Of a DNA stretch of 64,000 nucleotides, positions 17,691-34,039 are shown piece by piece (positions within the stretch are counted from its first letter, which is position 1; each line of letters opens with the position of its first letter). The position numbers and the translations under genes are program-made. The notes below the pieces were generated by a model. That model saw only the letters and a list, made by a program, of their open reading frames with translations. It had not been told where the DNA came from and made no database searches. The DNA is from Lautropia sp. (lineage in GTDB: Bacteria; Pseudomonadota; Gammaproteobacteria; Burkholderiales; Burkholderiaceae_E): the NCBI GenBank assembly GCA_030527825.1, contig JAUNAC010000002.1, positions 320,001 through 384,000 on the forward strand, in the 5' to 3' direction.

Positions 17691-17828
17691 CAGGACCCGG
17701 TTTGAAGGGCAGGGACATGTTGGTATGCTGGCTGGCCTAACCTATCTCATCCATGCGACCGATCGTCACTGCATGTTTTATCCAGCAAGATGGAGCCTCC
17801 TTGAACAAGCCAAACGGAGCGTTCCATC

Positions 17829-18113
17829 ATGGCACACACATTTAAGTCCCCAAGAGCATCATCCAAGAAAAAATCCCTCGGTCAGGGCATGACTGAATAC
17901 ATCGTCATCGTCGCACTCGTTGGGGTGGCTGCGATCGGTGTCTATTCCTTCCTGGGGCAGTCGGTAAGAGGGGCTACTTCCAGTATTGCCATGGAAATTG
18001 CAGGTGAGAATGGCAATGACGGTATTAAAGCAGCCAAGGATGCCAGCGACAAGGCACTGAATGCTGCCAAGACAAAAGCAACACTCAAAAACTATAACAG
18101 CAACAACCATTGA
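17829..18113 (+). CDS. Flp-like type IVb pilin (GQGMTEY type)
   Basis: 94 residues. A basic leader ends in KKSLG, followed by QGMTEYIVIVALVGVAAIGV. Cleavage after G18 would leave Glu at +5 and Tyr at +6, the Flp prepilin signature recognised by TadV-type peptidases. The mature protein is about 76 residues: one hydrophobic helix and a hydrophilic Ala/Lys/Asn-rich tail. It would be the major pilin of the Tad-like system encoded downstream. GGAG precedes the ATG. It is the first gene of the locus and is separated from the next by 163 bases, a common arrangement for a highly expressed pilin. Confidence 0.85.
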   Translation: MAHTFKSPRASSKKKSLGQGMTEYIVIVALVGVAAIGVYSFLGQSVRGATSSIAMEIAGENGNDGIKAAKDASDKALNAAKTKATLKNYNSNNH

Positions 18114-18276
18114 TCGTCACCGTCGTGATCACGGTCGCAGGTATCAACGGCATCTGGTACAGCAGCGCCTGGACGCTAGCCAAGCACGTTGCGAACCAGC
18201 TGTATTGAACGAGAGCCTGCGACCGGATCGACCGCGGACAGTTGAGCGACATTCGTACCGTTTTCTGGAGAACAGG

Positions 18277-19665
18277 ATGACTGGGCACAGGCACGTATCC
18301 GGAACCCAGCGTGGCAAGAAAAAGGATTGGCCATGCCGCTATGGTGATTGGCGTGTGCGTCAACAGGGGCAGGCGCTGATCATGAGCCTGTTTCTGTTGG
18401 TCATCATTGCCATGATGACCTTCTATCAGTTCTCTACGGGCCAGATCACGACGGCTCGCATGCGGCTGGAAAATGCGACGGACGCTGCAGCCTACAGTGC
18501 TGCAATCATGCGTGCCCGGGTATTCAATTACTACGCCTACAGCAACCGGGCGATTCTGTTCAATGAAGTTGCCATTGCCCAGACAGCTACCTTGACGTCC
18601 TATGCGGGATTTCTGGCTCAGGGGATACACAACATCAAGAAGTATGGTCAGTATATACCGTATATCCGCAATGTCATTGTTCAGATTGATGCGATTGCGA
18701 GCGCAATGAATCGCGCGCTTCGTGTGCTTAGCGCTGTCGAGGTAGGCAGCCGCAGTGCCTATGCACATGCGCTGGCTGCGAGTCAGGAGGCGATGTGGTT
18801 GACCACCAGTGGTTACTTTTTAAGTCAGGTGACCAATGAAGTCATGAGAAAAAGTGACGAGCATTTTCATGCCTATCTGCTGAGGGGAACGACGGCAGAA
18901 AGGCTCAGCAGACGATATGAAGGAAAAGGACGCAGCCGTCTGCAGGATATGGTCAATCGATCCTTGGATGGATATTCAAAGAATCGCTCATTCGATCTGA
19001 AGCTGCCTGGATTGCGAACCTGGATTTCAATGCGCGGCCAGACCGAGATGATACGCGACCATGACACCAGCGAACTTGAACGATGGCAGGCGTACGACAC
19101 GATGTCAATACATCACAAGAGACTTTTTCGAAAAAGAAGACATGAAATGCCCCTTGCCTGGAGTGGTGTTGAATTGGCACGCAGGTCTGAGGGAGGCATG
19201 GATCGATTGAATAATCGGGCAGACCACAACAAGACAGACAACGCCAAAGCCTATCAGAACATACACGACAGATCGTTTTGGTCGACGATCGCCTATCTTG
19301 GCCTGCCCACGGTCAGGGATCTGGATGAGGGAAGCACCGCGTTCCGACAGAATCATCGATTCCCGGCGGATCGGATCACTGTGGTTGGCGTGGTCAAGAA
19401 AAGAAATGACATCAACACTGCCCGTCAGATCGGGTTGGGCTCTGGTCGACTCATGCTTGAAGATAGTCTGCCGGACTTCAGGCAGGATGCGGTGATGATG
19501 GCCATGTCCGCAGCAGAGATCTATTTCCGCCACCCACCTGGAGCGGATGAGCGGATCGAGTATGCCAGCATGTATAGCCCGTATTGGCAAGTCAGGCTGG
19601 CCGGTGTCCAGGCACAAGAACGTCTGTTGGCGGGCGCATCCGCCTCACTTGGGAGATCGTCGTGA
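18277..19665 (+). CDS. TadG-like pilus assembly protein
   Basis: 462 residues from the ATG at 18277, which has GGAG nine bases upstream. A basic N-terminus with RQQGQALIMSLFLLVIIAMM forms a single membrane anchor, and LENATDAAAYSAA follows, the standard start of TadG/TadE-related proteins. At +5 after the glycine there is Met rather than Glu, so peptidase processing is doubtful. The rest (about 80-460) is a large, charged periplasmic part rich in Arg with no von Willebrand domain that I can see, unlike classical TadG. The stop overlaps the next start (GTGA). Role inferred from the N-terminus and context. Confidence 0.72.
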   Translation: MTGHRHVSGTQRGKKKDWPCRYGDWRVRQQGQALIMSLFLLVIIAMMTFYQFSTGQITTARMRLENATDAAAYSAAIMRARVFNYYAYSNRAILFNEVAIAQTATLTSYAGFLAQGIHNIKKYGQYIPYIRNVIVQIDAIASAMNRALRVLSAVEVGSRSAYAHALAASQEAMWLTTSGYFLSQVTNEVMRKSDEHFHAYLLRGTTAERLSRRYEGKGRSRLQDMVNRSLDGYSKNRSFDLKLPGLRTWISMRGQTEMIRDHDTSELERWQAYDTMSIHHKRLFRKRRHEMPLAWSGVELARRSEGGMDRLNNRADHNKTDNAKAYQNIHDRSFWSTIAYLGLPTVRDLDEGSTAFRQNHRFPADRITVVGVVKKRNDINTARQIGLGSGRLMLEDSLPDFRQDAVMMAMSAAEIYFRHPPGADERIEYASMYSPYWQVRLAGVQAQERLLAGASASLGRSS

Positions 19666-20672
19666 CCCTATCAGGTGATACGGCGACTGAAGGGATCCCC
19701 ATGAAGGTGATGGGGCAATCCTTGCAGGGCGGGCAGGCACTGGTTGAAACCTGCGTAGTGTGTCTATTTGTCCTGGTGCCATTCTTTGTGTTGTTGCCAC
19801 TGTTGGCGAAGTATCAGGACATCCGCCAGGTGACCGTGGCAGCGTCCAGAACAGCTGCTTTTGAGTGTGCTGTCTATGCGGATGAATGTTCGAATGAACA
19901 GACCGCCAGGCGTGTCGCGGAGCAGTTGCGGAGTCGTCATTTCAGTCAGGGTCATATTGCCCTGCGCTCGGATAACGTTTCCCTGAATGAGCGGCCCGGT
20001 CAGGAAGGTAATCCCTTTTGGGTGGGAAACAATGGGGATCCCCTGATAAAGGGCGATCAGCAAGTGTCATTAAAGCTGGCGCATGAGCGATTTGATGCGA
20101 TCAAGGCCGGGCACGGTCTGATTGATCGGCTCGCTGGTGCAGCAGGCGACATTGCAGGTCCTTCACGATTTGGGCTGTCGTTCAGAAACAGTATTTTCTC
20201 AGCGCAAGTGCAGAGCAGGGTGCCGATGGATATATCGTTTCGCCAGAAAGCAGATGTGAAACAGGACGGTGGGGTATCTGAGCGTCCTGTGCATGAGTTG
20301 ACGTTCAACAGTCAGGTTGGAATTCTGGCAGATGCGTGGAATGCATCCAGTGCCAAGGGTCAGGAGGGACGCAGCATGCAAAGTCGGGTGGATCGGGGAC
20401 GGCGCCTGCCTTCAGCTGGGGATCTTGCGCAGGCGACGAGGGATGCACTCCATTTTATGCCTGCTGCAGTGGCAAACCATTTTCCTGATCTTGATCCTGA
20501 CCGGATGATTGAATTTGTGCACAAACCATTGGTGGATCTCATTCATGCACAGCGCCCGCTTGCCAGAGGAAAACTGCCCAGATTTGAGTATCACAAAGTT
20601 GATGTAGAAATTGTTCCTGCAGATCGTCTTCCTGGTGACAGGGGCGTGGATGATCTATCGAAAAACCGGTAG
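19662..20672 (+). CDS. TadE-like pseudopilin with large C-terminal region
   Basis: 336 residues from a GTG at 19662 that overlaps the previous stop and has GGGAG upstream. An ATG at 19701 is the alternative. The class III leader LQGG/QALVETCVVCLFVLVPFF has Gly24 before the cleavage point and Glu29 at +5, then a hydrophobic helix to about residue 50. The remaining ~285 residues are periplasmic and unrecognised, much longer than classical TadE (about 190). TadE-type proteins are pseudopilins of the Tad machine. Two Cys pairs near the helix and the following segment might form a disulfide. Confidence 0.7.
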   Translation: MTLSGDTATEGIPMKVMGQSLQGGQALVETCVVCLFVLVPFFVLLPLLAKYQDIRQVTVAASRTAAFECAVYADECSNEQTARRVAEQLRSRHFSQGHIALRSDNVSLNERPGQEGNPFWVGNNGDPLIKGDQQVSLKLAHERFDAIKAGHGLIDRLAGAAGDIAGPSRFGLSFRNSIFSAQVQSRVPMDISFRQKADVKQDGGVSERPVHELTFNSQVGILADAWNASSAKGQEGRSMQSRVDRGRRLPSAGDLAQATRDALHFMPAAVANHFPDLDPDRMIEFVHKPLVDLIHAQRPLARGKLPRFEYHKVDVEIVPADRLPGDRGVDDLSKNR

Positions 20673-20760
20673 ATGCGACGGCCCAGCCAAACCGTGGTTG
20701 ACAGATTTCAGTTCTCTCGACTATCGCACGAATCATCGGTTCATTGAAACAGGTTGCCTC

Positions 20761-21495
20761 ATGAGTGCACTCAATCCATTTTCATTCAGGCGTCCGGATG
20801 GGTCGACGTTGTCGAATGCAACGGCCTGGCTGTTATGTCATCTGACGCTCGCCAGTATGTTGGCAAGTGTTCCTGCTCATGGCGCATCCGGCGGGCATTT
20901 TGTACCCCATGAACAAGTCATCATGAAAGATACGCTGGTGCCTGGCGGTCGGGTCAGCATCAGCCAGTTTGAATCCAGTCTGTCAGTTGATGACGCATTG
21001 CGCATGATTGAGGATGACTGGTCATCGACGCTACTTCCGCCAATGCGCAGTCATCACGATGGATGGCAGGTCATTACCCATCTGGATGGCAGCGTTGTGG
21101 AATCAATAGAGCTCCACACAGATGGTGGCGGGCTGTACGGAAGACGTGTTCGCTGGTCTGTTGACTCACACGATGCTGCCTCCCTGGATGCGGATGCCCA
21201 ATGGTTTCAGAGGCTCTTGCCGGGTACGGCACGGCCGATGCCTGTCATTTCGCATCTGGACGGGGGGCGCCGGGCGAGCACGTTGGTGGCCTGCGCGGAT
21301 GACAGTGTGGTGCGTCTGGATCATTGGGTCGGCCACAGATTGCTCAGACTTGGCTACCAGATGATCAGCGAGGGAGGTGGAGAGTCGAGTCAGTCTCCTG
21401 TTGTATCGCTGTACTCGCGTGATGGTGAGGAGATTGCCTTGTCTGTATCCAGAGAGGGCGCCAGGCAATTTCTGGTGATGCACTGGAGACGCTGA
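20761..21495 (+). CDS. Exported protein of unknown function in the Tad-like locus
   Basis: 244 residues from the ATG at 20761. A long hydrophilic N-terminus precedes a hydrophobic stretch (TAWLLCHLTLASMLASVPA) ending AHGA, a probable Sec signal with cleavage near residue 42. The mature part has no motif I know; repeated short His/Asp segments (HHDGWQVITHLDGS, VISHLDGGRR) suggest two related beta-rich halves. It sits between two pseudopilin genes and its stop overlaps the next start by one base, so it probably belongs to the pilus apparatus, possibly as a periplasmic partner replacing RcpB/CpaD. That role is inference. Confidence 0.6.
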   Translation: MSALNPFSFRRPDGSTLSNATAWLLCHLTLASMLASVPAHGASGGHFVPHEQVIMKDTLVPGGRVSISQFESSLSVDDALRMIEDDWSSTLLPPMRSHHDGWQVITHLDGSVVESIELHTDGGGLYGRRVRWSVDSHDAASLDADAQWFQRLLPGTARPMPVISHLDGGRRASTLVACADDSVVRLDHWVGHRLLRLGYQMISEGGGESSQSPVVSLYSRDGEEIALSVSREGARQFLVMHWRR

Positions 21496-21797
21496 TGAGA
21501 TCGGCCAATACGAGCATGAGCAGGAAATGTCGACGCCTGAGCTGCATCGTCTGGATTAGGCTGCATGCGTATTACGGGTTGTTTTGCAAGGCGGATCGAT
21601 TCCAGATGCTGGATCATTTTCCATACGCGGTACGCATCTGCAATAGGCAGAGGGGACAGGCATCTGTCGAATACCTCCTGATGACCATCGTTATGTGCCT
21701 GGTGCTGTTTCATGGTCAACCCAGTCTGCTGAGCAGGGTGTTGCGGGCAATACAGCAGAGCTATTCTTTTTTTTCCTATGGAATGTCATTGCCATGA
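21495..21797 (+). CDS. Small Flp/TadE-like prepilin with long leader
   Basis: 100 residues. RQRG/QASVEYLLMTIVMCLVLF gives Glu at +5 and Tyr at +6 after Gly54, the class III prepilin pattern. The mature peptide would be only about 46 residues. The 54-residue leader is very long; an ATG at 21606 would shorten it to 17. The upstream start is supported by GGAG and by the one-base TGATG overlap with the preceding gene. Its stop overlaps the cpaB start (ATGA). A second, minor pilin or an initiating pseudopilin is the likely role. Confidence 0.65.
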   Translation: MRSANTSMSRKCRRLSCIVWIRLHAYYGLFCKADRFQMLDHFPYAVRICNRQRGQASVEYLLMTIVMCLVLFHGQPSLLSRVLRAIQQSYSFFSYGMSLP

Positions 21798-22825
21798 AGC
21801 CCATCGTTAATAGATTGCTCACTCGTCATCGCCAGGTAGTATTGATGCTGGCCGCGGTCTTATGTGGTGGCGTTGCCGTTTACGCCGGATCCCATTATCT
21901 GCACGACCAGATTCAGGCAGAGCGGCTGCGGCTTACACCGCCACCGCAGGAAATGGTGGATGTGGTGGTTGCCAAAGAGTCTCTTGACAAAGGAGATGAA
22001 GTCAGCACCGAGACGATGGCAATCCGCTCGATGCCGGCACAATATGTGCCTGTTTCCGCTGTTACCCCATCTCAATTTGAGTCTTTGGTTGGTCAACGTC
22101 TGCTGCAGCCATTGCAGGCAGGTGAAATGCTTGTGGCATCAGAGGTGTCGTCGGCAGACCTGAAGTTGTTTTCCTCACGTGTCCGGCCAGGCATAAGGGC
22201 CATGACTATTGCGGTGGACGAAATCAATTCATTGTCAGGCATGTTGCAGCCTGGCGATCACATTGATCTGCTCATGACAGCCCGTCCGCCAACCGGCCCA
22301 GGGCAACGTGAAGCGGACCACGAGGTGACGGTACCGCTTCTGCAAAATTTGCTGGTGATGGCGACTGGGCGTCGTGTTCGTGCGGCGACTGATGACGGGG
22401 GAGATCCATCGGGGTATTCCGCAGTAACCGTGGAAGTCTCTCCTGCACAGGCAGCCCGCCTGGTGGTCGCCCAGCGAGCAGGGCGTTTAACGGCAGTGCT
22501 GAGAAATCCAGATGATGGATTGCCAGTAGTGGCTGATGCAGTTGATTTGAGCAGTCTGTTTCCTGTTGCGCCACCACCAGCTTCAGCCCCTGCGCGCAGA
22601 CGTTTCGCTGGCACTGACCGGCGACCCCAGATGATTGTCGGTGGGCTTGGCAAGGTGCTGGTTGGACGATTGCCGACATACAACCTGCACCACTCATCAG
22701 GGATCGCCCCTCAACCGCCGGCCCGTGACAAGGCACCTGACGGGGACGTGGCGTCGACTGATGCAGATGAGTCTATCGTAGCCGATGGCAAATACGGGGA
22801 TCACATCGATCGCAAGCACATGTGA
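21794..22825 (+). CDS. cpaB: Flp pilus assembly protein CpaB/RcpC
   Basis: 343 residues. One N-terminal membrane helix (QVVLMLAAVLCGGVAVYAGS) is followed by an SAF domain (VDVVVAKESLDKGDEVSTET ... GEMLVASEV) and then the CpaB C-terminal domain (RPGIRAMTIAVDEINSLSGML, QPGDHIDLLMT). The last ~90 residues are Pro/Asp-rich and probably disordered. CpaB is a periplasmic Tad protein that works with the secretin. The ATG overlaps the previous stop, and the secretin gene follows after 81 bases. Confidence 0.9.
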   Translation: MKPIVNRLLTRHRQVVLMLAAVLCGGVAVYAGSHYLHDQIQAERLRLTPPPQEMVDVVVAKESLDKGDEVSTETMAIRSMPAQYVPVSAVTPSQFESLVGQRLLQPLQAGEMLVASEVSSADLKLFSSRVRPGIRAMTIAVDEINSLSGMLQPGDHIDLLMTARPPTGPGQREADHEVTVPLLQNLLVMATGRRVRAATDDGGDPSGYSAVTVEVSPAQAARLVVAQRAGRLTAVLRNPDDGLPVVADAVDLSSLFPVAPPPASAPARRRFAGTDRRPQMIVGGLGKVLVGRLPTYNLHHSSGIAPQPPARDKAPDGDVASTDADESIVADGKYGDHIDRKHM

Positions 22826-22906
22826 TCAAGCGAGACCACATTTCCGCAGGAAAGCGGTTCCGCACGATCGATTTTCGATGAATTCATTTTTCAGACGAGA
22901 ACAATT

Positions 22907-24487
22907 ATGTCTGTTAGCGTGAAGTTACAGCATGTCCGTCATATGGCTGAATCTCTTCAACCATGCCATCGTCCCCTCATGCGAGGGACGTCATTGATCT
23001 GGATGGCTTGTGTTGCCCTGATGGGGGGTGCCTCAGCTGGCACAGCCTGTGCAGCCATGCCCGTTACGGGCTCATCGCTGTCCAGTCAGACATTATTGAT
23101 TAACCAGATAAAACCGACTGAGCCAGCAAAAGCGCCTAAGCCAGCAAAACAGTCTGTCCACGGTATGGGTCGCCAGCGGCCCGGCGCTCAGGAGAGGGGG
23201 GGACATCTGCCGTCCGGGCTGCATGTCAACCGCCAGCAGGCAGCAGCGATGTCCCCCGATATCCAGAAGATGACGCTTGCTGTTGGTCAGGCACACCTCT
23301 TGGAGGTTGGTGACGTGCTGCGTGTGGCGCTCGGTTCCGGGCGGGTTCTCCAGGCAAACTGGCTGGATGACCGGCAGATTCTGTTGATTCCCGAGGCGCC
23401 AGGCGAGACGACACTGCATTTCTGGCTCAAGCGCGGTGGCATGAAAACCTATCAGATTCTGGTGACCGAATCCAATGGATCCCGCCTGGTTGATGAAATG
23501 AATGATTTGTTAGGGACAAACAGTGGTGTGCGAGCGCGGCTGATGGGCGATCGAATTCTGCTGGAGGGACAGCATCCGACCGAGGAGGGAGCATGGCGGG
23601 CGGCAGAGCTGGTCAAGCGAAACCCGCAAATCATCAATCTGGTCAGTCGCCATGGCTACGAGCAGATGATCAGTCTCGATGTGAAGATGATAGAAATAGG
23701 TCGCAATGCCTTAAAGCAATTAGGTGTTCGCTGGCAAGGTGGGCCTGCGGGTGACTGGGCTGTTGTGGGACCGAGTTTTGGGGTGATCGGTGATTTTCAT
23801 CGCAGCGCCGCTTTTACGCCGGTGGATGGTTCCGCCGCTGCAAGAGGGTTTGCGGTTGCCCCCGTTTTGCACCCGCTGGCTACCAGTGCTTCCTTGGTTT
23901 CCTCGCTGAGCAGCATGATTGATCTGATGGTTCAACAAGGGGATGCGGCGGTTTTAGCAGAGCCGAGGCTCTCGACCCGATCAGGTGGCAAGGCCCGTTT
24001 TGTTGCCGGGGGGGAATTGCCCATTCCGGTCATCAACGCGAATGGCGCTGCCAATGTGGACTTCAAGGAATATGGTGTGCGATTTGAAATTGAACCGGTG
24101 CTCAATGCGCAAGGGGTTATCTCTGCAAGTCTGCATACGGAGGTGTCCAGCATTGATGAGGAGGTGAGCGTCAAGGGGGTTCCGGGTCTGCGCAAGCAAA
24201 GCTCCAATACGGATGTGAATTTGCGTCCAGGTGAAACCCTTGTTATTGCCGGTATGGTTCGAAACGAGATGTCGAATGTCGTGACCAAGATTCCGGGTCT
24301 GGGAAATCTTCCAATTTTGGGAAATCTGTTTCGATCCAAACGATTCCGGCGTCACGAGTCGGAAATGGTGGTTCTCATTACCCCTCATCTGAGTGGCCAG
24401 GGAGAGTCCCAGGCAGAAGATGAGCGCGCCCGCGCCATTCAGACGCGTTTTTCGGACATGAAGAAGCGCTTTGAAATGCTGGAATGA
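22907..24487 (+). CDS. cpaC: Tad secretin CpaC/RcpA
   Basis: 526 residues. A signal peptide (hydrophobic about 30-47) is followed by the N-terminal pilus/secretin domain (QKMTLAVGQAHLLEVGDVLR ... GETTLHFWLK), a BON-like segment (about 185-250, GVRARLMGDRILLEGQHPTE) and the secretin core (VLAEPRLSTRSGGKARFVAG, LRPGETLVIAGMVRNEM, KIPGLGNLPILGNLFRSKRF, EMVVLITPHL). It forms the outer-membrane channel for the pilus. The start at 22907 has only a weak ribosome site and may lie slightly downstream. No pilotin-like RcpB/CpaD gene is adjacent. Confidence 0.93.
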   Translation: MSVSVKLQHVRHMAESLQPCHRPLMRGTSLIWMACVALMGGASAGTACAAMPVTGSSLSSQTLLINQIKPTEPAKAPKPAKQSVHGMGRQRPGAQERGGHLPSGLHVNRQQAAAMSPDIQKMTLAVGQAHLLEVGDVLRVALGSGRVLQANWLDDRQILLIPEAPGETTLHFWLKRGGMKTYQILVTESNGSRLVDEMNDLLGTNSGVRARLMGDRILLEGQHPTEEGAWRAAELVKRNPQIINLVSRHGYEQMISLDVKMIEIGRNALKQLGVRWQGGPAGDWAVVGPSFGVIGDFHRSAAFTPVDGSAAARGFAVAPVLHPLATSASLVSSLSSMIDLMVQQGDAAVLAEPRLSTRSGGKARFVAGGELPIPVINANGAANVDFKEYGVRFEIEPVLNAQGVISASLHTEVSSIDEEVSVKGVPGLRKQSSNTDVNLRPGETLVIAGMVRNEMSNVVTKIPGLGNLPILGNLFRSKRFRRHESEMVVLITPHLSGQGESQAEDERARAIQTRFSDMKKRFEMLE

Positions 24488-24592
24488 TTGATCGTGCAAT
24501 AACGATGTCAGCGAATGGCGTATCGCAGATTGCAATTCAGGCAGATGCGATACATCTGGATGTGTATGAGCATGGCGACGGAGATGAATGGA

Positions 24593-26533
24593 ATGTTGGC
24601 GATTCTGATCGAGGAAGAGGGAAGAGATAGTCGGCTGGTCCGAGTGCCAAAGCTGCCCTGTCGCCTGGGGCGGGGCAGGGAGGCGGACGTGCAGTTGCCT
24701 GGCTGGCGGGTGGCCAAGGTTCATGCCGAATTGCAGCCGATGGGCCGGGGAATAAAGCTGGTGGATATGGGCACCATCGCGGGAACCAGGGTGAATGGTG
24801 AGCGGGTGGTTGAATACGGCCCCTTGCTGGAACAGGATGAAATCCGTTTGCCTGGTTATCGGATCATGGTCCAGGGGGAGGCGCTTCGGCATGGTCGGAT
24901 GATGGCTGGCTTTTCGGAGACAGATGAGCATGCGAATGCACGGGTTTGCGACGCTCGTACGGGTTCCGGAATGGTGATGTCAAGCGATACGCCCGGTACG
25001 GTATCGACCGGGCCGGCGCAGCAGGATGATTTCTTCGTGGCTGACAAGGTGAATCCGGACGGCGGCAGTCATGCGCCCGAATGCAGCCATTCACGCTCTG
25101 GCAAGGATCACGCTGCTGCCGAATATATGATGTCGCAGCGTGTGGGGGAGCCATCCACGTTGACGGATGAAGCGGAAAATACGCGTGTGCTGCCGGAAAT
25201 TCGCCCAGACCATTCTTTGCATCAGAAACCGGATTTCGCCCGGATGGCGCAGGCACAGTTGCAGGCGCTGGGCTGGCGTCGTCGCGTGCATCGTCAGCTG
25301 CTGGAAGTGATTGACTTGCAACGCAGCAATCTGACGCAGTTTTCTGCAGACGAGGTCCGGGCAGAAGTGTATGCGGCAGTGAAGCGGATTGTTGCTGAGA
25401 TGGATGCCTTGCCGTCGGAAATAGACCGGGAACTGCTCATACAGGATACGGTGGATGAAGCCGTTGGGCTGGGCCCGCTGGAGCGCTTGATGGATGATCC
25501 ACTGATCAGTGAGATCATGGTGAATGGTGTCTCGGATATTTTCATAGAACGCCAGGGCGTACTGCAGAAAGTTCCTCTGGCATTTTCTGATGATGAGGCC
25601 ATCCGAAATGTCATCGAACGCATCGTTGCGCCCCTGGGACGACGTATCGACGAGTCCTGCCCGCTGGTCGATGCGCGGCTTTCAGACGGTTCCCGTGTGA
25701 ATGCGATCATTCCGCCAGTTGCACTCAAGGGGCCGACAGTCACGATTCGACGTTTCAATCGAACGGTCATGACTCCGGAGACTTTGCTGTCCGGTCAGAG
25801 CGCCTCTGCCGCCATGATGGCATTCCTGCGCATCTGCGTGGAACAGCGAAAAAGCATCATTGTGTCCGGGGGGACCGGATCAGGAAAGACGACGTTGCTG
25901 AATGTGCTGTCCAACCTGATCCCTGCGGGGGAGCGCTTGATCACGATCGAGGATGCCGCTGAGCTGAAACTCGCGCACGCACATCTGGTTTCCCTGGAGG
26001 CGCGTCCGCCGAATGCAGAAGGCAGGGGAGCCATTTCAATTCGTGACCTGGTTAGAAATGCGTTGCGCATGCGTCCTGACCGGATCATCGTGGGTGAGTG
26101 CCGAGGTGCGGAGGCTTTGGATATGCTCCAGGCCATGAACACGGGGCATGAAGGATCAATGACGACCGTTCATGCCAATACACCCAGGGATGTGCTGTCA
26201 CGCCTGGAAGTACTGATGCTGATGGCCGGCATTGAGTTACCGCTGACAGCATTGCGAGAGCAAATTGCCAGTGCGGTCGATCTGATCATTCATCAGGCCC
26301 GATTTTCGGATGGTGCACGGCGTATCACGTCCATTACGGAGGTTTGTGGGGTGGAAAGCGGAAAAATTCAGCTTCAGGAGATCTTCCGGTATGAGCAGAC
26401 GGGCATGAAAGGTGGACGGATTCAAGGTCGGTTCCGCGCATGTAACGCAGTTCCTTCCTTTTACGAAGCCTTGAGAGCCCGAGGTGTTGCGGTGGATCTC
26501 GACATTTTTGAAGATGCGATGGTCCAGGCTTGA
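24593..26533 (+). CDS. cpaF: FHA-domain/CpaF (TadA) ATPase fusion
   Basis: About 646 residues from the ATG at 24593, supported by GGAG at a good distance; the frame is open to an ATG at 24515. Residues 1-95 form an FHA domain (CRLGRGREADVQLPG, VNGERV), 95-225 an Asp/His/Ser-rich linker, and 225-640 a CpaF/TadA type secretion ATPase. The Walker A motif GGTGSGKT is at 426-433, with LITIEDAAELKL, LVRNALRMRPDRIIVGE and MTTVHANTPRDVLSRLEVLM following. It powers pilin assembly at the inner membrane. In the FHA part, the phosphate-contacting Ser is Ala41 (AKVH) and the Asn of the S/T-x-N-G-T turn is Ala, so phosphothreonine binding is doubtful. Confidence 0.93.
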   Translation: MLAILIEEEGRDSRLVRVPKLPCRLGRGREADVQLPGWRVAKVHAELQPMGRGIKLVDMGTIAGTRVNGERVVEYGPLLEQDEIRLPGYRIMVQGEALRHGRMMAGFSETDEHANARVCDARTGSGMVMSSDTPGTVSTGPAQQDDFFVADKVNPDGGSHAPECSHSRSGKDHAAAEYMMSQRVGEPSTLTDEAENTRVLPEIRPDHSLHQKPDFARMAQAQLQALGWRRRVHRQLLEVIDLQRSNLTQFSADEVRAEVYAAVKRIVAEMDALPSEIDRELLIQDTVDEAVGLGPLERLMDDPLISEIMVNGVSDIFIERQGVLQKVPLAFSDDEAIRNVIERIVAPLGRRIDESCPLVDARLSDGSRVNAIIPPVALKGPTVTIRRFNRTVMTPETLLSGQSASAAMMAFLRICVEQRKSIIVSGGTGSGKTTLLNVLSNLIPAGERLITIEDAAELKLAHAHLVSLEARPPNAEGRGAISIRDLVRNALRMRPDRIIVGECRGAEALDMLQAMNTGHEGSMTTVHANTPRDVLSRLEVLMLMAGIELPLTALREQIASAVDLIIHQARFSDGARRITSITEVCGVESGKIQLQEIFRYEQTGMKGGRIQGRFRACNAVPSFYEALRARGVAVDLDIFEDAMVQA

Positions 26534-26569
26534 TTTTGGATCAGTACATGGTTTGGCAGGAGGCGCGAA

Positions 26570-27442
26570 ATGATCGTCTTGGGCGGTTTTGATCCATGGT
26601 TCTGGCTGGGCATGATGGCGGCAGGCCTGGCGGTTGCAATGGCTGCACTGGTGCTGTTACCCAGATCTGTGCAGGGACTTGCGGGCTATCGACGTCATTT
26701 TAAAGGCCGCGTGGGCCTTGGCATGAAAGACTTGCTTCTGTTCGTCGATGTGGATCGGCTGTTCCGGGCAAATCTGCTTGTCTGTATGGCGGCGAGTGCT
26801 CTCGTCTGGCTGGTGAGCGGATCGTTGTTTCTGGTGTTTCTGGTGATCGTGGTGGGAGGGGCATTGCCAGGCATGGTTGTATCCCGTTTGAATGAACGGC
26901 GGCGTTATCAGTTTGCACGACAGTTGCCTGATGCCATGATGCTGATCGCGGGTGCCGTTCGTGCGGGTGCTGGCATGACCCTCGCTTTGGGACAGATGGC
27001 TAGTGAGTTGCCTGCGCCGGGTGGGCAGGAGTTTGATCTCATGCTGCGTGAGCTGAGACTGGGGGTGACGCTGGAGAATGCCTTGATGAGTCTGGAGCGC
27101 CGGATGAACTGTGAAGATCTCAGGCTGTTCGGAGCGGCGGTGCGCATAGCGCATGAAAGCGGGGGAAATCTTGCAGAAACCCTGGAGCGCCTGGCGAATA
27201 CGATTCGCAAAAAGATGGCGCTGGAGGACAAGATTGTGGCGCTGACTGCACAGGGGCGAATGCAGGGCTGGGTCATGGTGCTTTTGCCGATCGGTGTTGG
27301 GATTGCGCTGTTTGCCATCGAGCCAGACAGCATGGCGCCTCTCCTTCACAGCTGGCAGGGATGGATCGTCTGCTCGGTAATCGCTGTTCTGGAGGTGGTG
27401 GGCTTGATGTTGATTCGCCGCGTTATGGCGATTGATATTTAG
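26570..27442 (+). CDS. tadB: Tad inner-membrane platform protein TadB
   Basis: 290 residues, with membrane helices at both ends and in the 65-105 region. A T2SSF/GSPII_F domain lies at about 110-240 (QLPDAMMLIAGAVRAGAGMT, SLERRMNCEDLRLFGAAVRI, GGNLAETLERLANTIR). With TadC it forms the inner-membrane platform on which CpaF acts. A GGAGG site precedes the ATG. tadC follows four bases after the stop. Confidence 0.9.
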   Translation: MIVLGGFDPWFWLGMMAAGLAVAMAALVLLPRSVQGLAGYRRHFKGRVGLGMKDLLLFVDVDRLFRANLLVCMAASALVWLVSGSLFLVFLVIVVGGALPGMVVSRLNERRRYQFARQLPDAMMLIAGAVRAGAGMTLALGQMASELPAPGGQEFDLMLRELRLGVTLENALMSLERRMNCEDLRLFGAAVRIAHESGGNLAETLERLANTIRKKMALEDKIVALTAQGRMQGWVMVLLPIGVGIALFAIEPDSMAPLLHSWQGWIVCSVIAVLEVVGLMLIRRVMAIDI

Positions 27443-27446
27443 GTGT

Positions 27447-28349
27447 ATGAACATGTCTGAATTTATGGCTTCTATATGGTTTTGGGGTGCGGCCGTTGCC
27501 TTGTTGCTGTGTGTATGGTTATTCATGTTGCTCGGACATCAGCTGGTGGGCGCGGTGCCCGCTCGTCAGGTGAACGAATATCATGATGCTCCTCCCCGTT
27601 ACTGGGCGATGCTTGGATGGGTGGGGCATGCACTGGCGTACTGGGTGAAGTCATGGATGCCGGCATCGTGGAGATCGCATTTGCAGGATAAGCTGCGCGT
27701 TGCCGGACTTGAATATTCACTGGTGCCAGAGTTGTTTGTAGCGGGTCAGATCGCGGCGGGTGTGGTTTCAGGTCTAGTGCTGCTGCTGATATGGTTCCCA
27801 CGTGGGTGGTCAGGGGTTCTGGTGCTTATCCTGGTGTCGGGGTTTTCGGCTGCTTTACCTGTCAGTTGGTTGCGTGATCAGGGCTTGCGACGCAAGCGGC
27901 AGATTTCAAAAGCATTTCCCTTCTATCTGGATATCATCACGCTGGCAATTGAGGCGGGCTCCAATATGACAGGTTCCTTTCAGCATGCCGTTGACAAGGG
28001 ACCAGGAGGCCCCCTGGCAGATGAGCTGCGGCGTGTTTTACGTGATATTCGGGCGGGAAGAAGTCGCGCCGAAGCTGTCAGGGCGCTTGCGGATAGGCTG
28101 AATATTCCGGCTGTTTCGAATTGGGTTGCTGCAATTTTGACCGCTGAAAAGCAGGGGGCAAGCCTTGGCCCGATTTTGCGGGCGCAGGCAGATCAGCGTC
28201 GCAATGAGCGATTCATGCAGGCAGAGGCCATGGCGCTGAAGGCGCCAGTCAAAATGCTCTTTCCATTAATTACATGCATTTTCCCCTGTACTTTCATCAT
28301 CGTATTCTTTCCGATCGCCATCCGGATTATGGGAGGTGGCCTATTGTGA
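27447..28349 (+). CDS. tadC: Tad inner-membrane platform protein TadC
   Basis: 300 residues with an N-terminal membrane helix, two further helices near 90-140, and a T2SSF domain (FPFYLDIITLAIEAGSNMTG, ADRLNIPAVSNWVAAILTAE, KAPVKMLFPLITCIFPCTFI). This is the second platform protein of the Tad machine. The ATG at 27447 is preceded by TAGGTG. Its stop overlaps the next start (TGATG). Confidence 0.9.
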   Translation: MNMSEFMASIWFWGAAVALLLCVWLFMLLGHQLVGAVPARQVNEYHDAPPRYWAMLGWVGHALAYWVKSWMPASWRSHLQDKLRVAGLEYSLVPELFVAGQIAAGVVSGLVLLLIWFPRGWSGVLVLILVSGFSAALPVSWLRDQGLRRKRQISKAFPFYLDIITLAIEAGSNMTGSFQHAVDKGPGGPLADELRRVLRDIRAGRSRAEAVRALADRLNIPAVSNWVAAILTAEKQGASLGPILRAQADQRRNERFMQAEAMALKAPVKMLFPLITCIFPCTFIIVFFPIAIRIMGGGLL

Positions 28350-28714
28350 TGATCGACAGGGATGAGTTCCGCACAGATTGCATTGGCATTGAGGTGCATC
28401 ATGCCAACACATGGTGGTGTCGCGCCCGAGGTCTGATTGGCCGCCCTCGACCTGGAAGGGGGGCCGGTATGTATTTCCCCCGGACATTTGCCGTGCACGG
28501 CATTGGCATGTTCAGGGCGTTGGATGTGCTATTTGTGGACCGGAACAACCATGTCCTGAGTTGCCGCAGGCTCTTGCCTTTCGGGATGTGTTTTTGTTGG
28601 TCTGCCAGTGCCGTGCTGGAAATGCGTGCGGGAGAGATCGCGCGCCTGGGCATTCGCCCTGGAGACCGGCTGCGATTAATGAGGACGGAGAACATGTTCG
28701 TTGATGTCTCCTAG
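28349..28714 (+). CDS. DUF192 family protein
   Basis: 121 residues, almost entirely one DUF192 domain: RARGLIGRPR, HGIGMFRALDVLFVDR, SASAVLEMRAGEIARLGIRP, GDRLRL. DUF192 proteins are small beta-rich proteins of unknown biochemical function, often exported, but no signal peptide is seen here. GGAGG lies upstream and the start overlaps the tadC stop by one base, so it is translated as part of the pilus operon. DUF192 genes inside Tad clusters occur in other proteobacteria. What it contributes is unknown. Confidence 0.85.
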   Translation: MIDRDEFRTDCIGIEVHHANTWWCRARGLIGRPRPGRGAGMYFPRTFAVHGIGMFRALDVLFVDRNNHVLSCRRLLPFGMCFCWSASAVLEMRAGEIARLGIRPGDRLRLMRTENMFVDVS

Positions 28715-28781
28715 GCAATCTGATGGATAGTTGTTGATTTGGCTTGTTGATAGGTGATCGTATCGATTTAAGGAGTATTTC

Positions 28782-29726
28782 ATGCAATCAAGGACTGTGT
28801 GTTCGATGCGGTTTACACGGCGTGTCTGGTGTCTGTCTGGAGGGGTTGCGTTTGCGATGATGGCATTGCCGGCTGCGCACGCCGCTTATGGTGACAGGGA
28901 TGTTCATTCCGCTCCCGTATCTGCCCAGGTGCCGATGCAGTTATCCAGACCAGCGCTTGTCATGCCAGCGACTGCGCCATCCAGTCAGGCGCTGCGTCAG
29001 TATTTTGATGAGGCGGAGCGCTGTTATGGGAAAAGAGATGACGTGACGGCGCTGAGAATTTTTTCATCCCTGGTCGAGTTGGCTCCTGATTATCGACAGC
29101 AGTCCTGGTTCAGGTTGGGCAATATCCATCAGCGGATGGGGTCTGTTGGCCAGGCGCTGGACGCGTATCGGCATCTTTTGCCGACCGGCAGTGACGGTGA
29201 TCTGGCCACCCCGGCTCATCCCGATTCGCGTCCGGCCTTGCGTTCATTTGGCACTGATCGAAATGCGGCCGGTATGCGGCGAAAAACGGATACCCTTGAT
29301 GTGCATAAGAAAGCAGTGGCGCTAAAAGGCATGGTCAATCTGATCATGCTGTCTATGCAGCAGACGCAGTCGGCGATGGATTATTTGTCTGCGTTGCTGA
29401 GTGATCCGTCGGTGGCTCAGGCTGCGGGCTTTGGTGAGGCGGAAAAGGGTGCGTTATGGAGTGGCATTCATTCTCAGCTTCGGGAGCTGCAGCGCGTGTC
29501 CTCGCATGCGACAGCCCGCGTGGCTGTGGCGGATAGAACCAGATCCACGTTGACGTCTGCGCTCAATGCAGACGCGTCCGGGCAGAATGTGCCGCGGTCA
29601 GTGGCGGCCACGTTGCCGGATCATTCTGTCATGCCATCAGGGCACTTCTCATCGACACGCCGTCCAAAGATCGAATACCTGGCAAATGCGCCGGGTGGTG
29701 TCAAGAAATCTGTAGAGATCCGCTGA
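28782..29726 (+). CDS. TadD-like TPR protein
   Basis: 314 residues with a signal peptide (CLSGGVAFAMMALPAAHA). TPR-like helices occur at about 70-130 (YFDEAERCYGKRDDVTALRI, SWFRLGNIHQRMGSVGQALD), followed by a helical middle and a Ser/Arg-rich tail. TadD is the TPR lipoprotein or periplasmic protein required for Tad pilus biogenesis. Here no lipobox is seen, and only about two TPRs are recognisable. AGGAG precedes the ATG. Assigned from domain type and position. Confidence 0.72.
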   Translation: MQSRTVCSMRFTRRVWCLSGGVAFAMMALPAAHAAYGDRDVHSAPVSAQVPMQLSRPALVMPATAPSSQALRQYFDEAERCYGKRDDVTALRIFSSLVELAPDYRQQSWFRLGNIHQRMGSVGQALDAYRHLLPTGSDGDLATPAHPDSRPALRSFGTDRNAAGMRRKTDTLDVHKKAVALKGMVNLIMLSMQQTQSAMDYLSALLSDPSVAQAAGFGEAEKGALWSGIHSQLRELQRVSSHATARVAVADRTRSTLTSALNADASGQNVPRSVAATLPDHSVMPSGHFSSTRRPKIEYLANAPGGVKKSVEIR

Positions 29727-29816
29727 TCGCTTGATGGTTGTTGCGGTACGGATCCAGGGGGCCCATGAATGTGTGAGCCAGATACTTTCAAGGGGTGTTG
29801 TGAGGGGGGAGCAAAT

Positions 29817-31028
29817 ATGTCCTTTCGGTCGTGGTACATGACAGCGCCTGTAAAAGCTTGCAGCGTGATGGCTGGCGCAGATCCTGATCATGGCGCTCAC
29901 GCCGTCTGTCGTGGCGTGGGGCGAGGCAGTGCAGGCAGGTCAGTCCAGAAAGGTGTTTCCCTGGTGGAAATGATTGTGGCAGTGCCGGTGTTGCTGCTGC
30001 TGGGTATGGCTGTCATTCAGATGATCCTGATTTTTCATGCGCGCCAATCAGTGACTTATGCGCTGCAGGAGGCCGTCCGTCAGGGCGCTGTTGAGCATGC
30101 GGATGAGCACGCCATTACGCAGGGATTTGCCCGAGGACTGGTGCCGTGGCTGTATGGGGCAAACAGTTTGAGTGATAAGATGCTGAAGGAAAAGGAGGCG
30201 ATGCTGCATGTTGCGAAGGCACGAGTGCAGCGCTGGCTGGTCTTGGAGCAGTTGTCCCCTACCCGTGAAAGTTTTGAGGACTGGTCTGTACCGGCACGAG
30301 ATCCGTTTGGTGAGATCATCGCGGGTCAACGAGAGATTCCCAATGATAATCTGGACAGTCGTCGGGAGAGGTCTGTGCCTGCGACGGGTATCGTGGGATA
30401 CGCTGGATCGGCGCCGATCGGTCGTCAATCGGGTCAGACGCTGGCTGATGCGAATTTGTTGCGTGTCGAAGCTACCTACGGCGTGCCGCTGGTGGTGCCG
30501 GGCATATCGCGGCTGTTTCTGAAGGCTATGCGTGCCTGGTACGGTTGTGAGTCGACGGCAGGCGCGCTTGCCAATGCGGCTGCGGGCGACAGGCAGTGTC
30601 TGTATTATTTGCAGGGAAGGATTCCCATCAGGGTCGTGGCCATGACCAGGATGATGTCACCAGCCCGACCTTCTCCACTGTTGAGTGCCACTGTGTCATC
30701 ACATGTGTCCCCTGGACAGGTGGCCACTAGCCAGGGCTCAGGTGAGATACGTCCGCTGCCGGTACGTGAAGCGTATATCAGCCATACCGGGCCAGCCCCA
30801 CATCGTTCTGATTCCGCTGATTTTCATTCTGTCGATGAAGGGCCGGTCCGCTGGGGGTCAACGACACCGGTCAGTGTGTCGGGGGGCGTCCTGGCTGCAG
30901 GGCTATCCCGGCAGGAGGATATCCCTGGCGAGTCCTTCGCGACGCCAGTGTCCGTAGACCAGGCCGATCAGGTGGCAGGCGAGATGCTAAAACCCGATCA
31001 TCCGTCCATTTGTCTTGATGGAACATAA
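29817..31028 (+). CDS. TadE-like pseudopilin with long C-terminal domain
   Basis: 403 residues from the ATG at 29817, which has GGGGAG upstream. The leader VQKG/VSLVEMIVAVPVLLLLGM has Gly46 at the cleavage point and Glu51 at +5, then one helix and ARQSVTYALQEAVRQGAVEHA, a typical TadE segment. The remaining ~330 residues are periplasmic and include YGVPLVVPGISRLFLKAMRA and a CESTAG ... DRQC cysteine pair. The final ~120 residues look disordered. It is the last gene of the locus on this strand, and the opposite-strand transglycosylase begins 98 bases on. Confidence 0.72.
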   Translation: MSFRSWYMTAPVKACSVMAGADPDHGAHAVCRGVGRGSAGRSVQKGVSLVEMIVAVPVLLLLGMAVIQMILIFHARQSVTYALQEAVRQGAVEHADEHAITQGFARGLVPWLYGANSLSDKMLKEKEAMLHVAKARVQRWLVLEQLSPTRESFEDWSVPARDPFGEIIAGQREIPNDNLDSRRERSVPATGIVGYAGSAPIGRQSGQTLADANLLRVEATYGVPLVVPGISRLFLKAMRAWYGCESTAGALANAAAGDRQCLYYLQGRIPIRVVAMTRMMSPARPSPLLSATVSSHVSPGQVATSQGSGEIRPLPVREAYISHTGPAPHRSDSADFHSVDEGPVRWGSTTPVSVSGGVLAAGLSRQEDIPGESFATPVSVDQADQVAGEMLKPDHPSICLDGT

Positions 31029-31126: not shown

Positions 31127-32497
31127 TCAGCCGTCGTGGCCGCCCCGCGATGCGGGCTGGCTGGAGGATACGGTTGTATCTGAAGATTTGCCAGGGTTTC
31201 TGTTGAAAATGCCGCTGCTGGTGGTTGCAGACGGATCATAGGGATGAAAATCAAAGGGGTAAGCGGCCCGGATGCGCTGGACATAGGCGAGTGTTTCGGC
31301 ATAGGGCGGAACGCCGTTATATCGGTCCACGGCACCTTCACCGGCGTTATAGGCTGCGAGTACCAGGCTGACATCACCCCGGTAGTAGTTGAGCAGCCAG
31401 CGGAGATAAGCCATTCCACCACGAATGTTCTGCACTGGATCCATGATGTCCTTGATACCAAAGCGCTCAGCGGTTTCTGGAAGAATTTGCATAAGTCCAA
31501 AGGCATTGCGATCCGAGCGGGCGTTAGGATTGAATGCGGATTCGGTGGACATGACGGCCAGGACGAGGCGGGGGTCGAGTTTGTAGTTTTTGGCTTCTGC
31601 GATGACGTGGTTAACAATTTTGGTTCGGGCGGCGCCTGCTACCGGATTGCGGCTGAAGGCTGTGTGTTTACTGAGTGCTGCAAGTTCGGCGACGCTGGCT
31701 GACCGCTCAGCGGAGCCTTTTTCGACAACACTACCTTTTACGCAGCCGGGTAGGATCTCTTTGCCTGTTTTGTAGCGCTGAGATAGATCCTGCGCAATGT
31801 CACTGCCAAATTGAGCGGCTCGCTGAAAGAGGGTGGCGGCGATGTCATGGTTACGCGACACCCCCTTGCCTTCTTCGTAGATCCAGCCCAAGCGTACCAT
31901 GGCATCAGGATATCCACCCCGGGCAGCTTCGCAGTACAGGGACTGGGCACGATCGTAATCAGGTTTTCCAGAGAATCCGGATTCAGACAACATGCCTTGC
32001 TGGACTAGATCGCGGTAATGTTCAATGGGATTGATGTCCTTACGCACCACTTTCTGGGTAAAAGATGGCAGTTTGACGGTATCTCTAATATGGCGTGTGT
32101 TGGCCTTGGTATTTCCAGCTAGTGGCCAGGCGTCGTCTTTGCCTGGACGGATTTTTTTCTGTAGTGCGGCACTAGGTTGAGCTTGTCCAGGAATTGCTAC
32201 GTTGCTAGATCGGCTATTGAATCCGGATGCTCGATAGCTATTGTAAGACTGATTGCGCCTATCCATTTCGTAGGTGCCACGTCCAGCCCGTCCGGACGAC
32301 CAGTTACCGCTAGGTGCGGCAAGTGCACCACGGCTACCCTGGTAGTAGGTACTACCCGTGGCGCCATTTGCGCCAGTCGGGGAACCGACGGGACCTCCGA
32401 TGGGACCTCCCGTCTGTGCAGCTGTATAGTGGCAGAGGAGCAGGAGAGTGGAGCCCAGCAAGAAATTGGGGCGCAGGGGAACCCATGCGGAGATCAT
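31127..32497 (-). CDS. Sel1-repeat lytic transglycosylase
   Basis: 456 residues. A signal peptide (NFLLGSTLLLLCHYTAAQ) is followed by a Gly/Ser/Asn-rich low-complexity region to about 130. Two Sel1-like repeats lie around 185-250 (YDRAQSLYCEAARGGYPDAM, RLGWIYEEGKGVSRNHDIAA), and an SLT catalytic domain around 300-420. The catalytic Glu is E319 in STESAFNP; GLMQILPETAERFG and AAYNAGEGAVDRY are the other SLT motifs. It would cut the glycan of peptidoglycan in the periplasm. It converges on the Tad-like locus, so it may open the wall for the pilus. ATG at 32497 chosen over TTG at 32503 because AGAGGTGG lies upstream. Confidence 0.88.
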   Translation of the reverse strand: MISAWVPLRPNFLLGSTLLLLCHYTAAQTGGPIGGPVGSPTGANGATGSTYYQGSRGALAAPSGNWSSGRAGRGTYEMDRRNQSYNSYRASGFNSRSSNVAIPGQAQPSAALQKKIRPGKDDAWPLAGNTKANTRHIRDTVKLPSFTQKVVRKDINPIEHYRDLVQQGMLSESGFSGKPDYDRAQSLYCEAARGGYPDAMVRLGWIYEEGKGVSRNHDIAATLFQRAAQFGSDIAQDLSQRYKTGKEILPGCVKGSVVEKGSAERSASVAELAALSKHTAFSRNPVAGAARTKIVNHVIAEAKNYKLDPRLVLAVMSTESAFNPNARSDRNAFGLMQILPETAERFGIKDIMDPVQNIRGGMAYLRWLLNYYRGDVSLVLAAYNAGEGAVDRYNGVPPYAETLAYVQRIRAAYPFDFHPYDPSATTSSGIFNRNPGKSSDTTVSSSQPASRGGHDG

Positions 32498-32671
32498 TGC
32501 CAAGAGACCACCTCTAGTGTGGGATCTGCCCGAAGGAAGGTCACCCGGGCTCGGAGACGGCGAAACAGCGCATTCAATAGGGCGTACCGTCTGTTGATGA
32601 TAAAGTCGGCCCGCCCCACTCTCCTATTTTAGCGCATGTGCTGGCAAGGGGGTATGAGTGCAAGCCTTGCT

Positions 32672-34039
32672 TTAGCGCATGTGGTGTTTGGCCAGAAGAT
32701 CATAGAGTGTTGGGCGGCTTACACCAAGCGTGAGCGCAGCCTTGGCAATATTGTCGTTGGCATCTTTCAGCGCCCTGATGATGGCGTCGCGTTCGGCTTC
32801 ATCACGGGCATGTTTGATGGTGACTGGCGGCAGGGTTTCGTTGGCCGGCAGGCCCAGGTCACTGGCCTGGATGACGACGCTGTCGGTGGTCAGTATGGCC
32901 TGCTGGATAATGTTGCGCAGTTCGGTGACGTTGCCATGCCAAGAGTAGCGGCTGATGGCTACTAATGCATCGTCAGAGAGCACCATGCGGGCTGTATCCG
33001 GCTGCTGTGTGTGGGCCTGATTGAGCAGCCACTGGGCCAGCTCGCGGGCGTCATCCCCCCTCTGGCGCAGGGGGGGAAGACACAGGTGAACCTGGCCGAG
33101 CCGGTCGTAGAGGTCCCGACGGAACTGGCCTTCCACGATCCGGTTGCCCAAGGCGGGACTGGCGATGCTGATGATTTGGGGCAGGGTATTGACGTCTTTC
33201 CAGCGGGTTTCGCTGTTGTGGATCAGGTAAAGGAGCTCCGTCTGGATGGTGGGATCGAGTTGTTCGATGTTTTCCAGGATGATGATCGGCTGGCCCGCCC
33301 CCTGATATTCGGTGGAGGCTTGACGGAATGCGACTTCGATATCTATACCGCGGGTGTAGCGGCTGCAGCTGATGATGGGGGGCATCGGTACGGGGGGCAG
33401 TTGCGTGCTGTCGGTGCCAGGGCGATGGCCGTTGTATTGGGCAAAATAATGTGCCAAGGTCTTTCGGCCGGTGCCGGGTTCGCCCTGGATCAGGATCCGC
33501 AGATTGTGGCCGAGCAGGCGACGTGCGCGTTTGACTACTCGGCGCATGGCGGCATCACTGCTCATTAAACCGGGAATCAGCTCGTTGAGCGGGCGAACTT
33601 TGGTCAGGCTGATATTGTGCAAGCGGATTTGCTGCAGTCGTCGGGCGCGCTGGACTGCGTAAGCAAGCATCTGGGTATCGGAGGGATAGGCGAGAACATC
33701 GTAGATATTGGGCAGCAGGAGTTGTCCGGCCAGATAGTCATCTGTTGCGCCAATGGCAATGATCTTGGCGTTGGGGCGGGCCGCCGTAAGCTGGCGGCAG
33801 GCATCGACCGGGGAACTGGCTTGCGGGCCGCCGTGGGTACCAAAGTCGAGCACAATGACGTCGACATCCGCTGTATGCAGTTTGACAATTGCCTTCTTGA
33901 TCCCCTGAATAAACAGGGCGTCTCTGGCCAGAGGTGTGTGCTGCAGGCCGATGGCATGTTCAGGTGAAAGTTCTACGATCATCAGCTGCTTGTTGCTCAT
34001 GGACAGAATGTGTAGTCGTCTAGGTGTCGGGTATTCCAT
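32672..34039 (-). CDS. Degenerate sigma54-activator-like response regulator
   Basis: Up to 455 residues (ATG at 34039; an ATG at 34000 gives 442). The N-terminal receiver-like domain (about 17-135) keeps a candidate Asp65 (VIVLDFG), but the switch Lys before Pro is Tyr118. The AAA+ domain (about 155-385) reads GEPGTGRKT where activators have GESGTGKE. The GAFTGA sigma54-contact loop is missing and Walker B is IIILENIE. The arginine-finger region FRRDLYDRLGQVHLCLPPLR is intact. A Fis-type HTH ends the protein (NIAKAALTLGVSRPTLYDLL). It probably binds DNA but cannot activate sigma54 in the usual way. It resembles PrsR-like regulators in layout. Confidence 0.82.
   Translation of the reverse strand: MEYPTPRRLHILSMSNKQLMIVELSPEHAIGLQHTPLARDALFIQGIKKAIVKLHTADVDVIVLDFGTHGGPQASSPVDACRQLTAARPNAKIIAIGATDDYLAGQLLLPNIYDVLAYPSDTQMLAYAVQRARRLQQIRLHNISLTKVRPLNELIPGLMSSDAAMRRVVKRARRLLGHNLRILIQGEPGTGRKTLAHYFAQYNGHRPGTDSTQLPPVPMPPIISCSRYTRGIDIEVAFRQASTEYQGAGQPIIILENIEQLDPTIQTELLYLIHNSETRWKDVNTLPQIISIASPALGNRIVEGQFRRDLYDRLGQVHLCLPPLRQRGDDARELAQWLLNQAHTQQPDTARMVLSDDALVAISRYSWHGNVTELRNIIQQAILTTDSVVIQASDLGLPANETLPPVTIKHARDEAERDAIIRALKDANDNIAKAALTLGVSRPTLYDLLAKHHMR

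Follow-up and report, generated by a model that had tools for sequence, protein, structure and literature searches.

Gene content and recurrence of the locus

We analyzed a 64,000-nucleotide stretch of a Lautropia sp. genome, here called the window, in whose positions all coordinates are given. The window belongs to contig C4 of a genome of 2.80 Mb that is 99.4% complete, and it carries a putative Tad pilus locus at positions 17829-31028 of the + strand. Thirteen co-oriented frames, all present and intact in the open reading frame (ORF) list, follow one another as given below, with vertical bars marking prepilin cleavage sites. Statements on the clade refer to 35 loci (that of the window, the 17 nearest, L002-L018, and 17 from relatives, L103-L119) that were compared by iterated profiles.

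17829..18113, + strand, Flp-type major prepilin; SLG|QGMTEY cleavage site by sequence reading, G|QGM(T/S)EY kept in the clade
18277..19665, + strand, TadG-like protein; QG|QALIM site, Tad PF13400 1.3e-7; start codon inferred, frame open from 18061
19701..20672, + strand, first TadE-like prepilin; GG|QALVE site, clade orthologues with G|Q...E
20761..21495, + strand, exported protein; start codon inferred, orthologues in the clade, two predicted PsbP/DcrB-like domains
21495..21797, + strand, small "VEY" prepilin; RG|QASVEY site, best match class III signal peptide PF04021 at 0.0092, below the cut-off
21794..22825, + strand, CpaB/RcpC alignment-complex protein; TIGR03177 157.7 bits (cut-off 71), PF16976, SAF
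22907..24487, + strand, RcpA/CpaC secretin of 526 residues; PF00263 4.3e-37, T2SS-T3SS_pil_N PF13629 3.5e-12
24515..26533, + strand, CpaF/TadA motor ATPase with an N-terminal FHA domain (class III CpaF); T2SSE 7e-63, FHA 5.5e-10
26570..27442, + strand, TadB platform protein; T2SSF PF00482 1.1e-15
27432..28349, + strand, TadC platform protein; T2SSF PF00482 5.8e-17
28346..28714, + strand, DUF192 protein; PF02643 1.2e-15, start codon inferred
28782..29726, + strand, TPR protein, probable TadD counterpart; TPR matches below the cut-off, no lipobox seen in the window copy
29769..31028, + strand, second TadE-like prepilin; KG|VSLVEM site, TadE PF07811 9.6e-10

Reading frames together with Pfam and NCBIfam matches confirmed the order of 13 genes on one strand that had been proposed in the original prediction, including the FHA fusion, the DUF192 protein, the exported protein and a 5' position of the pilin genes that departs from classical Tad loci. 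The predicted overlaps of starts with stops were also found at several joins, being seen directly at 21493-21497 and 21794-21797 and, in the ORF list, as frame overlaps between TadB and TadC and between TadC and DUF192. The identities of Flp, the first TadE-like protein and the exported protein, which had zero Pfam matches up to E = 1, rest on motif and orthology, and the match of the small prepilin was found at the same place across the clade loci. The motor matched the solved CpaF 9e24 at 1.5e-110. What had been labeled simply a TPR protein retained that label through matches below the cut-off and was refined to a probable TadD counterpart; a lipobox is present on this protein in six relatives. 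Judged from its sequence, the locus appears to encode a machine for Tad (type IVc) pili that belongs to the deep CpaF class III lineage, since it combines a CpaF/TadA-type motor, a TadB/TadC pair, an RcpA/CpaC-type secretin with CpaB, and a small Flp with G|xxxxEY.

The original prediction had regarded this locus as a peculiar set of genes, which did not hold up because the set and its order recur across beta- and gammaproteobacteria. The 17 nearest loci came from a motor-based scan of genome contigs that was limited to the best 80 loci, and with the 17 loci of relatives, at least 34 further loci in Burkholderiales, Rhodocyclaceae, Acidithiobacillus, Pseudomonas and others showed largely the same gene set and order: flp-tadG-tadE-exported-small prepilin-cpaB-secretin-FHA-cpaF-tadB-tadC-(DUF192)-(TPR)-tadE. 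Carriers of this order include Quisquiliibacterium, Rhodocyclaceae, Massilia, Telluria, Paraburkholderia, Pseudomonas and Chromatiales. Acidithiobacillus departs from it, with its tadB/tadC matches on the opposite strand, as does L113, with DUF192 on the opposite strand; contig ends truncate two loci, L013 and L116. A survey of neighborhoods that combine FHA-CpaF with DUF192 thus confirmed the predicted gene set but not its rarity, as the set recurs widely and DUF192 lies near Tad genes in other phyla too. The gene set is genuine and shared by many loci, not an isolated peculiarity, and belongs to a branch that is widespread but has been little studied. We also observed that in 10 of 17 loci (L103-L119) the Tad genes have an isocitrate lyase gene as their upstream neighbor (16306-17616 in the window), a conserved neighborhood that suggests vertical inheritance of the locus.

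TadZ, FHA domains and prepilin maturation

Relative to the classical gene set, TadZ, which normally acts as the positioning protein, TadV and RcpB/CpaD had been reported as absent. Because the profile PF16968 failed its own controls and was dropped, we built a TadZ profile from four classical Tad loci in relatives and searched 18 genomes. The best match in the window genome was partial, at 25 bits over a receiver-like part, and no full-length match was found there or in any of the seven other genomes of the genus that were tested. Among the 18 genomes, only the four that supplied the profile contained full-length TadZ (over 560 bits), which is circular as a control; the sensitivity of the profile is better indicated by 29 separate and 12 motor-fused TadZ proteins that it recovered in loci of other phyla outside its sources. 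By eye, the five AAA_31 places in the window genome resemble a ParA next to ParB, an Mrp-like protein, a CpsD-like protein and, in two cases, Wzc-like proteins. These searches support the absence of TadZ, and the suspicion that a TadZ homologue might be hidden under unrecognized proteins found no support, as the profile matched none of the frames of the window. For RcpB/CpaD the prediction stood in part: CpaD PF09476 had no match in the genome, but the positive control matched in Caulobacter only, so this result covers the CpaD family alone and an RcpB of another family is possible.

We then compared the occurrence of FHA and TadZ at Tad motors. Of 102 motor loci, 80 had at least 4 kb upstream and at least 3 kb downstream and were used, with 22 excluded for short flanks. 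FHA alone was found in 47 and TadZ alone in 31 (24 as a separate protein and 7 fused to the motor), while two loci, both of Planctomycetota, had neither and none had both. Among all 102 loci, 12 have a ParA-like TadZ domain joined to the CpaF N terminus, mainly in Omnitrophota and Bdellovibrionota (L022, L029, L032, L034, L039, L040, L042, L049, L052, L062, L065 and L078); Pfam ParA/CbiA matches occurred in the same number, 12, of 49 non-FHA motors.

A second sample of 160 Pseudomonadota genomes gave 85 motor places, including that of the window and two already in the set (L113 and L155). Eighty of the 82 new places were used, the two weakest being left out. TadZ without an FHA match was found in 67 of the 80, and the other 13 had neither by profile. 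Among these 13, two have an FHA-like N terminus by eye, six stand apart from any further Tad profile match, and five belong to the f52 family, whose Tad loci (L176, L180, L181, L182 and L187) show neither a TadZ nor an FHA match within about 4.5 kb. The two FHA-like cases, L240 and L242, are divergent, with a separate downstream FHA-like protein by eye in addition to the FHA-like CpaF N terminus; the TadZ profile found nothing in either, and the exported protein is weakly matched in L240. FHA-type motors thus appear to be uncommon among Pseudomonadota sampled in this way. FHA lies outside the 25 most frequent Pfam families in these 80 motors and the 49 non-FHA motors, a result that still allows a few FHA matches.

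A motor tree of 112 rows, made by a quick method with the FHA part removed and with L240 and L242 counted as FHA, placed the window in a 37-row clade with a support of 99 in the Shimodaira-Hasegawa-like approximate likelihood ratio test (SH-aLRT). All rows with a separate TadZ fell into a 45-row clade (support, 98), along with four rows that have neither FHA nor TadZ. L021 stood outside this tree and L045 and L054 were unlabeled in it; the clade and pair tests were made without L013, L023, L045 and L054. As FHA changes on the tree are few, a single FHA clade is not rejected and the test of independent pairs is powerless, the pattern appears to be a deep split rather than many repeated exchanges, and the tree allows one old exchange.

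The predicted absence of TadV was verified by a search of the whole genome. We found no A24 peptidase within the locus, and the single A24 peptidase of the genome, sited in pilB-pilC-pilD-coaE, is PilD of the type IVa pilus. A combined A24 profile had no match in the 35 clade loci and one match in each of four classical Tad loci of relatives. Twenty-one of 41 genomes searched, including that of the window, carry the FHA-type locus, all confirmed on DNA. Fourteen of these have exactly one A24 peptidase, and in four a classical Tad locus elsewhere in the genome supplies a second one, TadV; G009 shows an additional weak match that stays below the cut-off, and no A24 peptidase turned up in two incomplete genomes (81 and 83%). 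By sequence, either PilD matures the Tad prepilins or no A24 enzyme appears to do so. PilD, the sole A24 peptidase that the genome search turned up, is thus the probable processing enzyme of the Tad pilins.

The FHA pocket and alternative readings

Considering gene content, absences and distribution together, we think it probable that the locus encodes a class III Tad pilus with prepilins cut by PilD, an FHA domain in the place of TadZ and an exported accessory protein.

The modeled fold of the FHA domain is intact (predicted local distance difference test score [pLDDT], 92.1), with FhaA and GarA as the best structure matches. The FHA domain of class III CpaF has been stated to bind phosphothreonine (PMC12019362), and a signaling cascade has been suggested for the Kil system of Myxococcus. 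On this model, the domain would be a working phosphothreonine sensor, a Ser/Thr kinase marking a partner or the CpaF linker and FHA coupling this signal to pilus extension. The fold and its matches fit such a sensor, as do a Gly kept in 36 of 36 and a His kept in 35 of 36 clade FHA domains. When aligned with Myxococcus motors and FhaA, however, the window domain keeps R and H but has Ala in place of both the S-x-x-H Ser and the Asn that precedes GT. The four residues Arg, Ser, His and Asn, which we take to be the phosphothreonine contacts, occur together in 0 of 36 clade domains versus 10 of 17 FHA motors outside the clade, and 32 of the 36 retain neither Ser nor Asn. Up to four columns ahead of the Ser position, 35 of 36 clade domains carry a Trp, versus none of 17 outside. 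Judged by these residues, phosphothreonine binding looks unlikely in this clade, and we consider a working sensor unlikely as well. Since the contact residues are lost, docking through FHA is more likely to be independent of phosphorylation.

A replacement of TadZ by FHA has to be weighed against mere shared descent, in which a lineage without TadZ would carry FHA by chance and FHA would take over no function of TadZ. Several observations count against the replacement and PilD readings. The motor scan drew its loci by likeness to the window's own motor, which biases the first sample, and the second tests the rule from the TadZ side only because it holds zero FHA profile matches. FHA needs three changes on the tree, of which only one is forced; a single FHA clade is not rejected (P value of the approximately unbiased test [p-AU], 0.354), and the comparison of independent pairs lacks power, both of which favor shared descent. 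TadZ is also absent without FHA in the two Planctomycetota loci and the five f52 loci. As for maturation, Flp has Gln at +1, unlike PilD substrates, which usually carry Phe there, and the relative G009 has its second A24 match, although below the cut-off. Against shared descent, in 12 loci the ParA-like TadZ domain occupies the CpaF N-terminal place that FHA has here, and TadZ/CpaE has been termed a ubiquitous component placed around CpaF (PMC13170226). We regard shared descent as a serious possibility, though one in which we place less belief than in the main account given above. A contact-dependent secretion or killing apparatus like Kil of Myxococcus xanthus, instead of an adhesion pilus, is improbable: Kil also has an FHA-fused motor (KilF), is a single-ATPase system and has had PilD proposed as its alternative peptidase, but it lacks TadG and TadD, has a short secretin without an N0 domain, encodes a predicted peptidase of its own (KilA) and a larger number of FHA proteins, and is reported to be restricted to deltaproteobacteria (PMC8460266). 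The window locus has a TadG-like protein and a TPR protein, and its secretin, 526 residues long, carries the N-terminal pilus domain PF13629. Decay of a Tad locus through loss of essential genes would explain why three canonical genes were not found, but all frames are intact and the set is kept in the genus and far beyond it; we rejected this explanation as extremely improbable.

Accessory genes, proposed working and known systems

Turning to the accessory genes, orthologues of the exported protein occur in 34 of the 35 clade loci, and the sole miss, L013, is truncated upstream. Structure matches of its AlphaFold2 model (pLDDT, 84.8; predicted template modeling score [pTM], 0.57) point to two PsbP/DcrB-like domains, and the protein may be a periplasmic accessory of the pilus. 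DUF192 profile matches were found in 31 of 35 clade loci (none in L003, L010 and L011; L116 ends at a contig end), TPR matches in 23 of 35, and the second TadE in 33 of 35, with both misses at contig cuts. Because the DUF192 and TPR matches share one reading frame in 7 of 35 loci (L018, L106, L107, L108, L109, L111 and L117), an apparent fusion, the sequences suggest that the two proteins work together. DUF192 frames also stand directly at the end of the TadZ-fused motors of four Omnitrophota loci (L029, L034, L049 and L078), and DUF192 at Tad loci therefore extends beyond the clade.

Two genes downstream of the locus are candidate members only, with neighbor counts limited by some of the genus loci L103-L108 being short at their ends.

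31127..32503, - strand, Sel1 and SLT lytic transglycosylase; beside the locus in 5 of 6 genus loci (L103-L108)
32672..34039, - strand, NtrC-like sigma-54 activator; beside the locus in 3 of 6 genus loci (L103-L108)

Upstream of flp, a promoter-like pattern, CTA(A/G)-N15-18-(A/G)CCGAT, is found in 4 of 7 genus loci (window 17710-17840; L103, L105 and L106) and in 0 of 27 others; the pattern was picked post hoc, with a single-base shuffle mean of 0.02 of 7. It is followed by an AAGATGG(A/C)G leader conserved in 7 of 7 genus loci. FliA is encoded in the genome, and control of flp by this flagellar sigma factor is a thought only.

For the working of the machine, we propose that Flp and the other prepilins would be cleaved by the type IVa PilD. 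By homology, Flp would be the main pilin, with the TadE-like, TadG-like and "VEY" proteins as minor subunits, and cleaved Flp would be polymerized by the CpaF hexamer motor with the TadB/TadC platform and leave through the periplasmic conduit CpaB and the outer membrane gate RcpA. In Caulobacter, six CpaE dimers have been modeled around CpaF (PMC13170226). From the mutual exclusion of FHA and TadZ, we infer that FHA domains on the CpaF hexamer may replace this TadZ/CpaE ring as a docking or recruiting module, probably independently of phosphorylation. More tentatively, and with clearly less confidence than in this account of the locus itself, old Tad lineages might meet one need in two ways, either with TadZ/CpaE around the motor, separate or fused, or, in beta- and gammaproteobacteria, with an FHA domain on each motor subunit that docks independently of phosphate, in a lineage that lacks its own peptidase and runs on PilD.

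If so, Tad pili and type IVa pili would share one maturation step, and through reliance on PilD both systems would depend on a single enzyme. A recent paper describes TadZ/CpaE as ubiquitous in Tad machines (PMC13170226), and a proteobacterial branch that appears to lack TadZ but keeps the core makes the role of TadZ testable by comparison. The degenerate FHA pocket likewise casts doubt on the assumed reading of phosphothreonine by class III motors. The locus is more ordinary than first read but holds a testable substitution at the level of a lineage.

Sharing of a peptidase has precedents in the proposal of PilD for Kil (PMC8460266) and in MSH pili, whose loci likewise lack a prepilin peptidase and may borrow that of another system, although they belong to another type IV filament family (PMC6668835). 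Compared with the canonical flp-tadV-rcpCAB-tadZABCDEFG, the locus has the same Flp, CpaB/RcpC, RcpA, TadA, TadB, TadC and TadE/TadG-like proteins and probably TadD; it differs in that TadZ, TadV and CpaD were not found, the pilin genes come first, and FHA, DUF192, the exported protein and an additional prepilin are extra. The possibility that it is an already described Tad subtype proved true of its motor: FHA N-terminal to CpaF, mostly in betaproteobacteria and for example in Achromobacter xylosoxidans, has been published as class III (PMC12019362). The available part of that account centers on the ATPase and does not report locus content, absence of TadZ or pocket loss, and in the open PubMed Central (PMC) literature we found no account of this gene set or locus type, of FHA/TadZ exclusivity or of a degenerate FHA pocket. 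The class III motor architecture was thus already known, and to it our analysis adds the exclusivity of FHA and TadZ, the loss of pocket residues, the absence of TadZ, the probable use of PilD and a conserved exported protein.

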